DNA from: Pseudarthrobacter sp. AL07
GTDB taxonomy: Bacteria; Actinomycetota; Actinomycetes; Actinomycetales; Micrococcaceae
Direction: 5' to 3'
Assembly (NCBI RefSeq): GCF_029960665.1
Contig: NZ_JASBRB010000001.1
Location: forward strand, 310,001-374,000
Length of the DNA: 64,000 nucleotides
In this document: piece by piece, positions 53,231 through 54,897 of the stretch
How the letters are laid out: each line of letters starts with the position of its first letter
How positions within the stretch are numbered: the stretch's first letter is position 1
The notes under the pieces: generated by a model
Told to the model about the DNA's origin: nothing
The model's input: only the letters and a program-made list of their open reading frames with translations
Databases searched by the model: none
Made by a program: the position numbers and the translations under genes

Positions 53231-54085
53231 ATGAAACGGATCCTTGCCGCTTTTGGTGTCGCGGGTCTTGCGCTATTAGGTGCCACAGCGCCGGCTACCG
53301 CGTCGCCTTCTGAGGATGAGAAAAAAATCACCATTTGCCACGCCACCGGCTCGGAAAGCAATCCCTACGTGCCGGTGACCATCAACCTCAACGGGCTCAA
53401 CGGCCACGTGGGCCACCAGTACGATGAGGACATCATTCCGGCCAACGATGGGAAAGTTCTTCCCGGCGGCCAGAACCTTGACAAGATCGGCATCTGGAAT
53501 GCCGGCTGCGCCGCACCATCCGAGCCGAACGGCAATGGTCAGGGCGATCACAAGATCACCATCTGCCACGCCACCGGCTCGGACAAGAACCCGTACGTGC
53601 CGGTAACGATCGCCCTGCAGGGGCTCAACGGCCACGCCAACGCCAACCACCAGGACTCGGAAGACATCATCCCGCCGAACAACGGCAAGGTGCTGCCTGC
53701 AGGCCTGAACTGGATGGGTGAAGGGCAGGCAACGTATAACAACGGTTGCGTGCCCACAACAGTGCCGCCAGTAGTGCCGCCTGTCGTCCCTCCGGTGGTT
53801 CCTCCGGTGGTTCCTCCGGTGGTCCCGCCTGTGGTGCCGCCGGGCGTAACGACAGTTGTACCGGGTAATCCCAGTGGGGCAGTTGTCGGAACGACGGCCG
53901 GTCGTGGGGCCGTAGCTGCCAACAACCCTGGCTTCAATGTCCAGACTGCAGTGGCAGGTTCCACTGACGTTGCCGTTGCCCCTTGGGCCGCCGGCATCGT
54001 GATGATGCTGCTCGCTGCAGTGGCAGTGGCTGCCCGGAAGACGCTGGCAGCCAGCGGTACCGTATCCCGGCCCTGGAAGGAGTGA
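53231..54085 (+). CDS. Cell-surface protein with two ICHATG repeats and a VPP stalk
   Basis: A 284-residue exported protein. Signal peptide 1-24 (cleavage probably ATA-SP). Two homologous domains follow: residues 32-93 and 108-173, each beginning KITICHATGS and containing NPYVPVTI, GLNGH and EDIIP...GKVLP. Each is bounded by one cysteine at its start and one at its end (36/93, 112/173), suggesting a disulfide in each. Residues 178-204 are seven VPPV units, a rigid stalk. Then a Gly/Ala-rich linker, GFNVQTAVAG, a transmembrane helix (about 251-267) and a basic tail. No LPXTG is present. The sortase gene 116 bp downstream suggests sortase-dependent anchoring. Function unknown. Confidence 0.82.
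   Translation: MKRILAAFGVAGLALLGATAPATASPSEDEKKITICHATGSESNPYVPVTINLNGLNGHVGHQYDEDIIPANDGKVLPGGQNLDKIGIWNAGCAAPSEPNGNGQGDHKITICHATGSDKNPYVPVTIALQGLNGHANANHQDSEDIIPPNNGKVLPAGLNWMGEGQATYNNGCVPTTVPPVVPPVVPPVVPPVVPPVVPPVVPPGVTTVVPGNPSGAVVGTTAGRGAVAANNPGFNVQTAVAGSTDVAVAPWAAGIVMMLLAAVAVAARKTLAASGTVSRPWKE
53762..53845. repeat. 12-bp tandem coding repeat (VPPV stalk)
   Basis: Seven imperfect in-frame copies of a 12-bp unit like GTCCCTCCGGTG encode V-P-P-V. Several neighbouring copies (GGTTCCTCCGGT) are identical in DNA, pointing to recent copy-number change. Stalk length may vary between strains. Confidence 0.85.
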
Positions 54086-54201
54086 CGCCGGGTCCTGGCG
54101 CCCGCAGTGGCGCTGTTTGAATCAACGGCGGGCGCCGTGGCCGCAAGGGCCCGGCGCCTGCCGGCAAACCGGGAAAATCCGACTGACAAGCGGGGGTAAC
54201 C

Positions 54202-54897
54202 ATGTACAGCGGTGGAAGGCTCTTCACCGCCAAGAGCATTGTCTTTGTGGCGCTCTGTGGCGTGCTGGCCTACCTGGCGTTCGCTTTTTTGCCATTCCTG
54301 GCCGGGCCGGGACAGTCGCCGAAGGTGACCGGGGTTGCTGTGCAGCCGACCGCCCAGGCTCCAACGCCGTCCACCCCAGCGCCCTCCACGGACACCGGTG
54401 CTCCGGTCCCGGCCGGTCCGGTTCCGGCCGGTCCGGCAGCGTCGCCACCGCAGCGCCTGGTGTACCCGGCCGCAGACATCGATGTGGTGGTCCATCCGCT
54501 CAAACCAACCGGCGAGGACCAGGCCACTCAAACTATCGTGCCGCCGCCCACCATGGACGGCTACTGGCTGTCGCCTTACGGTGTGCCCGGAGTGGGCTCG
54601 GTCAATACCACCTACATCGCCGGCCATAGCTGGGTGGACAGGGGCGCGCCGTTCAACCGGCTGAGTACCAAGGCGGCGGCAGGTGACAGGCTGACAGTGG
54701 ACACAGCCACGGGCGAAGTGGCCTACGTGGTGGATTCGGTGACTACCTACGTCAAGTCCGGCCTCAAGGACAGCCCCATATGGCAAGTGGCACCCAACAG
54801 GCTGGTCCTGATTTCCTGTTATACGGGTGATTTCTGGGGCACCAACGTGGTGGTGGTGGCCTCACCGGAGGACCCAGCCCTTCGTCTCAATAAATGA
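54202..54897 (+). CDS. Class E/F-like sortase
   Basis: A 231-residue membrane enzyme: N-terminal helix (about 12-33), a Pro/Ala/Thr-rich spacer (40-83), then the sortase beta-barrel. Catalytic His142 is in TTYIAGHSW and Cys206 in LVLISCYTGD. The arginine usually found a few residues after the Cys is missing; the strand reads FWGTNVVVVAS. Sortases join a substrate's sorting motif to the cell wall or a pilin. It lies directly downstream of the surface-protein gene. Some actinobacterial class F enzymes show a similar ISCYTGD-x-WG-x-NVVVV pattern, so loss of activity should not be assumed. Confidence 0.88.
   Translation: MYSGGRLFTAKSIVFVALCGVLAYLAFAFLPFLAGPGQSPKVTGVAVQPTAQAPTPSTPAPSTDTGAPVPAGPVPAGPAASPPQRLVYPAADIDVVVHPLKPTGEDQATQTIVPPPTMDGYWLSPYGVPGVGSVNTTYIAGHSWVDRGAPFNRLSTKAAAGDRLTVDTATGEVAYVVDSVTTYVKSGLKDSPIWQVAPNRLVLISCYTGDFWGTNVVVVASPEDPALRLNK

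Follow-up and report, generated by a model that had tools for sequence, protein, structure and literature searches.

The locus described here raises the question of how a surface protein without an LPXTG-like motif could be anchored by the sortase encoded next to it. It lies in a window of 64,000 nt (the whole stretch of DNA that was analysed) from Pseudarthrobacter sp. AL07, in which nt 53231–54897 on the + strand comprise the surface-protein gene and the sortase gene together. An earlier note, made from sequence alone, had described a protein with a signal peptide, two ICHATG domains, a VPP stalk, a transmembrane helix and a basic tail, followed 116 bp downstream by a sortase gene; it had seen no LPXTG or LAXTG and had proposed NVQTA as a non-canonical recognition motif. 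Comparison with relatives makes it very likely that the two genes form a dedicated sortase-substrate anchoring pair with an NxQTA signal; no experiment has been done, and cleavage, the acyl-enzyme and wall attachment are inferred. The features of the locus are as follows.

53231–53305, + strand: signal peptide, about residues 1–25 (read by eye from the translation)
53321–53512, + strand: ICHATG domain 1 (alignment of 47 domain copies)
53549–53752, + strand: ICHATG domain 2 (domain-copy alignment, AlphaFold2, Foldseek)
53753–53842, + strand: proline-rich stalk with VVPP repeats (translation)
53930–53950, + strand: proposed sorting signal GFNVQTA (conservation among relatives)
53936–53950, + strand: NVQTA core of the sorting signal
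53984–54034, + strand: C-terminal membrane helix, about residues 252–268 (Kyte-Doolittle window, limits by eye)
54035–54082, + strand: basic C-terminal tail (translation)
54202–54897, + strand: sortase gene, 231 aa (ORF translation, Pfam)
about 54229–54306, + strand: N-terminal membrane helix of the sortase (read from sequence)
54442–54894, + strand: catalytic domain of the sortase (alignments, predicted fold)
54625–54627, + strand: His142 of the sortase
54817–54819, + strand: Cys206 of the sortase
54844–54846, + strand: Asn215 of the sortase, at the position of the catalytic Arg

The description of the locus held. ORFs and translations confirmed a surface-protein ORF of 284 aa (53231–54085, + strand) separated by 116 bp from the sortase ORF (54202–54897), and the domain layout was as claimed, with the signal peptide and helix resting on sequence and hydropathy. 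The protein possesses the layout of an LPXTG-type substrate, i.e. a signal peptide judged by eye, a C-terminal helix and a basic tail. Absence of LPXTG and LAXTG was verified in the translation, and the tail had no match among the NCBIfam anchor models at E 10, so that an LPXTG signal in this protein was rejected. The peptide GFNVQTAVAG is located at 53930–53959, ahead of the hydrophobic helix, and by analogy with cleavage between Thr and Gly of LPXTG, the predicted cleavage point is between T239 and A240. A PDB sequence search with the surface protein gave a best E of only 0.55. The pair is flanked by what we take to be, from the translations, a methionyl-tRNA-synthetase-like ORF and an isopropylmalate-dehydrogenase-like ORF. 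No promoter was found in a scan of the locus, terminator-like sites numbered 6 versus 1.7 expected, and the RNA fold of the 116-bp intergenic gap had a z of -1.7.

The check that the earlier note had itself named, alignment of homologues encoded beside this sortase clade, was made as an upstream-ORF test, which took at each locus the closest ORF upstream of the sortase that ends in a helix and a basic tail, the motif playing no part in the choice. The input was 234 loci, from which 8 were dropped for lack of a sortase ORF at E 1e-30 and 44 because the last 120 residues of the sortase were already represented; 34 without an upstream ORF meeting the rule were left uncounted. At 138 of the 148 distinct sortase loci counted, G-x-N-[VAIL]-[QDE]-T-[AGS] was present before the helix, compared with 17 of 29,600 shuffled tails and none of 43 other anchored ORFs at the loci. 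Nine of the ten misses were variants (TDVDTA, SRVQTA, NAQTT, NIDSA, NMQTA, NIQSA, NVDTR, VAVDTF and LAVQTA) and the tenth, L045, is apparently frameshifted. Looser rules placed the signal at 23 of the 34 uncounted loci. The 11 without it were L052, L262 and L263 (divergent sortases), L064 (truncated), L090, L161, L237, L245, L257, L261 and L271; at L090, no anchored ORF was found by the rules, yet the DNA pattern G[FY]N[VA]QT was placed there. In genome G030, two pairs (L045 and L028) look frameshifted. Thus, the proposal passed its own test, and one of the outcomes named as refuting it, no conserved motif before the helix, did not occur. NVQTA as a non-canonical motif is supported but was too narrow, the wider form being N-[VAI]-[QD]-T-A, usually inside NxGxN[VA]QTA.

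Similar results were obtained with two other sets. A looser genus test, which prefers a motif-bearing ORF wherever one exists, recovered the signal in 99 of the 105 anchored ORFs lying upstream, the misses being L037 (a variant), L045 (looks frameshifted) and L052–L055 (divergent sortases); at L064 and L090, an anchored ORF was lacking. Of 167 named GTDB loci, 80 were kept, and 78 of these had the signal, as NAQTA in 38 and NVQTA in 33, with NLETA, NAQTS, NVQTS, NVDTA and NIQTA in the rest; the two misses were L143 (NAQTT) and L161 (contig end). The hosts in this set were Arthrobacter, Pseudarthrobacter, one Kocuria dechangensis and one Micrococcaceae metagenome bin. These counts are drawn from related genomes, do not represent independent events, and overlap between the genus genomes and the named GTDB loci.

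When 64 tails dereplicated at 60% identity were aligned, the block N-x-G-[FYLM]-N-[VAIL]-[QDE]-T-A was observed, with N in 55, G in 64, F/Y/L/M in 51, N in 62, T in 62 and A in 59. The tails had been chosen with the motif, and the counts for G, N, V/A, Q/D and T are therefore partly built in. The N two places before G (55 of 64), however, is at a position absent from every selecting pattern, and the residue after G was also outside the motif-based selection. No comparable conservation was seen in the stalk, spacer or helix of the aligned tails, from which the NxG[FYL]N[VA]QTA block stands out. Relative to LPXTG, the signal has N for L, V/A/I for P, Q/D for X and A for G, with T kept.

Signal and sortase also occurred together across genomes. 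The window sortase was matched at E 1e-5 in 72 of 101 genus genomes (in G079 by a divergent match only), and the DNA pattern G[FY]N[VA]QT had 85 matches in 62 of the 101, versus 3 for the reversed pattern. By hand comparison of coordinates, 82 of the 85 preceded a clade sortase by no more than about 0.7 kb. Three matches lying outside such tails were rejected as chance, namely that in G008, that in G035 at 1342158 and that in G002 at 220070 (loci L057–L059). The exact pattern was present in 61 of the 72 sortase-bearing genomes; in the other 11, most tails examined were variants, one genome had only a divergent sortase and one a truncated sortase. In the 29 genomes where the sortase had no match, the pattern was found only in G008, in an unrelated ORF. 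All four Gly, both Asn and both Gln codons were used in the pattern, and this mixed codon use indicates that the protein sequence is what is kept.

A tail profile run over 39 genomes, scoring at most 150 candidates per genome, reached E 1e-6 or better 25 times, in 19 genomes. These matches equalled the number of clade sortases genome by genome and were all adjacent to them, a tally that sets aside a divergent sortase match in G013 (E 1.7e-17). The remaining 20 genomes, of which six belong to the genus but lack a sortase match and 14 represent other families of the order, had no tail-profile match better than 5e-4. One-to-one pairing is thus shown in the searched genomes, and as far as the search extends, each sortase probably has a single substrate of the NxQTA kind. 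L063 apparently holds two tandem substrates, with NLGYDVDTA and NLGYNVDTA, before a single sortase. A paralogue of the domain part is encoded on contig C85 of the same genome (48% identity over query residues 1–72); its end reads GFNAQTS ahead of a helix and basic residues, and its own sortase comes next.

The window sortase passed PF04203 (37.6 bits versus a cut-off of 26.6) and was matched by no NCBIfam class model. The AlphaFold2 model of its domain (pLDDT 84.4, pTM 0.83) possessed the sortase beta-barrel fold; Foldseek against sortases gave E 3.3e-9, and VIA gave Z 12.6–15.2 over 118–136 residues to classes A, C and E (50 listed rows). In PDB sequence searches, the window sortase had no match and the sortase profile reached a best E of 0.07. 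The catalytic His and Cys were present in 31 of 31 clade rows, so that a sortase fold with both residues conserved is shown; Lys185 (K105 of the domain) is likewise invariant. The His-Cys-Arg triad, which all sortases are said to share (introduction of PMC13257024), is incomplete here: the strand beta8 position that is Arg in class E was Asn in all 31 clade rows. That column was placed by sequence alignment and not by superposed coordinates; in L005, a class E row, Arg occupies it. Over 89 class-F-like rows, among them L006, L221, L223 and L274–L303, it held Asn in 85, Ser in 4 and Arg in none. Loss of Arg as a trait unique to the NxQTA clade was considered and is unsubstantiated, since class F rows also lack it. 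With Asn in place of Arg, it cannot be taken for granted that the enzyme works by the standard mechanism.

A tree built on 81 rows placed the 31 NxQTA rows in one group (95/96) and 24 class F rows in a separate one (100/100); the tree was only midpoint-rooted, and its class F rows had been picked by a pattern requiring Asn. Hosts of the clade were Arthrobacter, Pseudarthrobacter and other Micrococcaceae. In a search of the family, 42 of 245 genomes and 11 of 32 genera matched the sortase at E 1e-20, two of these genera only via a divergent group whose operon is a different one and lacks the signal. In the class, 34 of 394 genomes matched at E 1e-8, those outside the family being distant (best 4e-22). 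The divergent Micrococcaceae group consists of L052–L055, L262–L264, L266 and L267; its neighbours, where displayed, are other membrane proteins without NxQTA, including one with CNNPTFKPGDSP among L052–L055.

Class F (NF033748) is similar to the window sortase in fold family by profile, in having His and Cys, and in lacking Arg in the Arg column (Asn 26 and Ser 4 in the 30 class F loci over the cut-off, i.e. 30 of 30 without Arg). Class F genes, like the window sortase, are often located beside a tail-anchored surface protein, and the nearest plasmid-borne relative bears the annotation class F sortase. However, the window sortase had no match to NF033748 at E 1, two clade members scored only 27.9 and 29.5 bits where the cut-off demands 166, and the enzyme falls in a clade separate from class F. 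The tails also differ: 11 of the 16 class F loci displaying a tail (30 examined) had [GSH]-[VA]-x-T-G and not N-[VA]-Q-T-A. L006 of the AL07 genome is just below the class F cut-off (157.6 versus 166 bits). The neighbour tails of the [GSH]-[VA]-x-T-G form, at class F loci within L274–L300, are not LPXTG, e.g. PRGGAQTGGG and PKGSVKTGVGG. Beside class-F-like sortases of other actinobacterial families, [VLAI]PT[AS][VI]xAG with a helix and a basic tail was observed at 13 of the 27 loci L200–L226; the loci concerned are L203, L206–L211, L215, L217–L220, L222, L224 and L226, with one-residue variants at L203 and L217. Such tails, e.g. VPTAVDAG and VPTAIPAG, could represent a second non-LPXTG signal.

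Class E, represented by SrtE1 of S. coelicolor with its LAXTG signal, is likewise actinobacterial and has Ala in place of Pro at the second signal position, and the window sortase resembles it in fold (Z 12.9 to 5cuw). The class E signal begins with Leu and ends with Gly, whereas that of the clade begins with Asn and ends with Ala. SrtE1 keeps Arg329 (PMC5148588), and the spacing from Cys to the clade Asn (Cys+9) equals that from Cys320 to Arg329 (PMC5148588). A separate class E gene, L005, is present in the AL07 genome (NF033747, 245.2 bits versus 160). Signals of class B, NPXTN or (N/S/P)PXTG (PMC5148588, PMC13257024), share the initial Asn and the Thr in fourth position, but the 138 matching tails have V, A, I or L in second position and none of the ten misses has N-P-x-T. 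A sortase beside a substrate with a distinct signal is known from AbpA-SrtB of oral streptococci (PMC4974636), which differs in having LPKTS with a three-residue tail, no hydrophobic domain and a Firmicutes class B enzyme (PMC4974636). The anchor models TIGR01167 (LPXTG), NF041528 (LAETG) and NF058582 (LAVTG) have the same layout of signal, helix and basic tail. Among five clade tails compared with the anchor models, only that of L002 passed one (TIGR01167, 17.2 versus 15.9 bits), owing to the helix part (profile 7–32), and no NxQTA-type anchor model in NCBIfam was matched by the five. In the open-access literature searched with exact strings, sortase together with NVQTA or NAQTA was not found. 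The system is likely a sortase pathway of known type whose signal is new and whose active site deviates.

The two ICHATG domains of the surface protein are 67% identical to each other. In the alignment of 47 copies, I5, C6, H7, A8, G10, D39, P42 and C67 were invariant; ICHA and the last Cys had been used to excise the domains, and invariance of these residues is thus partly built in. Domain 2 gave an AlphaFold2 model with pLDDT 88.8 and pTM 0.76, for which no PDB fold match was found (Foldseek best E 3.7). The window protein had no Pfam family above cut-off and no NCBIfam match, and the 47 copies reached a best E of 0.028 against Pfam; a lack of matches there is no proof that the fold is new. 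The earlier note had also claimed conserved Cys, His and acidic residues in this domain, which held (Cys, His and Asp), and had suggested that it could bind a metal or ligand, which remains possible without binding data. With respect to anchoring, ICHATG is one of several passengers and lies outside the mechanism. A part for ICHATG in that mechanism was rejected: of the 78 proteins with the signal in the named GTDB set, 33 contain the ICHATG string.

Passenger domains (ICHATG, ice-binding PF11999 or unknown) vary while the signal stays. In ten other clade substrates scanned by Pfam, none chosen for ICHATG, PF11999 was detected in five (L038, L040, L051 and L254 with N-x-D-T-A, and L049 with SRVQTA), and the other five had no Pfam match at E 0.01. 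A pair on plasmid NZ_CP154263.1 is annotated as an ice-binding family protein and a class F sortase. PF11999 proteins of Arthrobacter relatives with a tail of the NxQTA kind beside a clade sortase were seen at L038, L040, L049, L051, L254 and L337. No work joining ice-binding and sortase in title or abstract was found in the open-access literature searched. Five N-x-D-T-A sortases (L038, L040, L044, L051 and L254) formed one tree group (100/98); D at the third signal place was also present outside this group, in L063, L066, L246, L247, L250, L256 and L259.

Elsewhere in the phylum, 7 of 245 genomes encoded ICHATG domains. Seven ICHATG loci outside the family were read to the ORF end, and four had anchor-like tails, LPFTG (L327), LPRTG (L335), LARTG (L336) and LAMTG (L325), three of these proteins coming from the single genome G741. 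Only the LPRTG tail passed TIGR01167 (24.0 versus 15.9 bits). No tail of LPxTG/LAxTG type was found at L333, L329 and L330, nor in the short ORFs of L326 and L328. Since ICHATG is carried on LPxTG/LAxTG tails in these four proteins from other families, NxQTA stands at the position of LPXTG, and the occurrence of this ectodomain on either kind of anchor fits an exchangeable anchor.

Recognition of NxQTA by the clade sortase is strongly supported by these comparisons and is very likely; the remaining steps are inferred. In the proposed mechanism, the signal peptide would export the surface protein, and the C-terminal helix and basic tail would hold it in the membrane, leaving N-[V/A/I]-[Q/D]-T-A just outside for recognition by the neighbouring sortase. 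Cys206 would attack the Thr carbonyl, the T-A bond would be cut, and the protein would be passed on to a cell-wall precursor through an amino group of the latter; the cut between Thr and Ala, the acyl-enzyme and the transfer to peptidoglycan are all inferred from the sortase family. The proline-rich stalk would raise the anchored protein on the wall, and the passenger domain, ICHATG here and ice-binding domains in relatives, would be exchangeable. The role of the surface domain is inferred.

Three other explanations were considered. In the first, the sortase links copies of its neighbour into a pilus-like fibre, either in place of or alongside wall attachment of single molecules. The best fold matches include class C sortases, and a streptococcal sortase beside its sole substrate is known to perform both anchoring and ladder formation (PMC4974636). 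On the other hand, the 39 genomes have one signal-bearing protein per sortase and no tails for ancillary pilins, and the class A and E fold matches are equally good; one locus, L063, does seem to hold two substrates. This explanation appears unlikely. In the second, the enzyme is not a transpeptidase and, Arg being missing, cuts between QT and A to release the surface protein. It is supported by Asn in the Arg column of 31 of 31 clade rows and by a class A enzyme that was inactive after Arg replacement (PMC13257024). However, 33 class F rows also lack Arg (Asn 29, Ser 4), LPXTG is cited as a substrate of a class F enzyme (PMC13257024), and ICHATG domains elsewhere sit on LPxTG/LAxTG tails; release is thus improbable as well. 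The third, that the conserved island serves membrane insertion or folding and that the sortase has other proteins as substrates, fits the closeness of the island to the helix and is very unlikely, as the island is absent from 43 other anchored ORFs at the same loci and the pattern from 28 of 29 sortase-less genomes, the one match being in an unrelated ORF.

The preferred reading, a dedicated anchoring pair, can be extended to a bolder claim, for and against which, its parts being taken jointly, we see equal weight. It holds that the pathway lies outside the A–F scheme, with a His-Cys-Asn clade of Micrococcaceae reading N-[VAI]-[QD]-T-A on one adjacent protein each, that the Ala after the scissile bond matches Ala-containing peptidoglycan bridges, and that related clades read other signals (PTAVxAG, [GSH][VA]xTG). 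The peptidoglycan bridges of these bacteria contain Ala. Under this claim, the differing signals would make the Arg-less class-F-like sortases of Actinomycetes a radiation of specificities missed by LPXTG searches.

A 2026 study of an actinomycete possessing four sortases of class F took LPXTG, NPXTG, SPXTG, PPXTG, LPXTA and LAXTG as criteria (PMC13251363), and deletion of these four sortases gave no phenotype (PMC13251363); a differently formed signal would leave their substrates invisible. The pairs described here allow tests of signal-enzyme co-change (Q to D) and of what replaces Arg, and NxQTA pairs may offer an orthogonal ligation tag. Some relatives seem to place ice-binding proteins on the wall by the NxQTA system. 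Sortase substrates are usually sought by LPXTG-like motifs, and the NxQTA proteins of this family of soil bacteria would escape standard searches.
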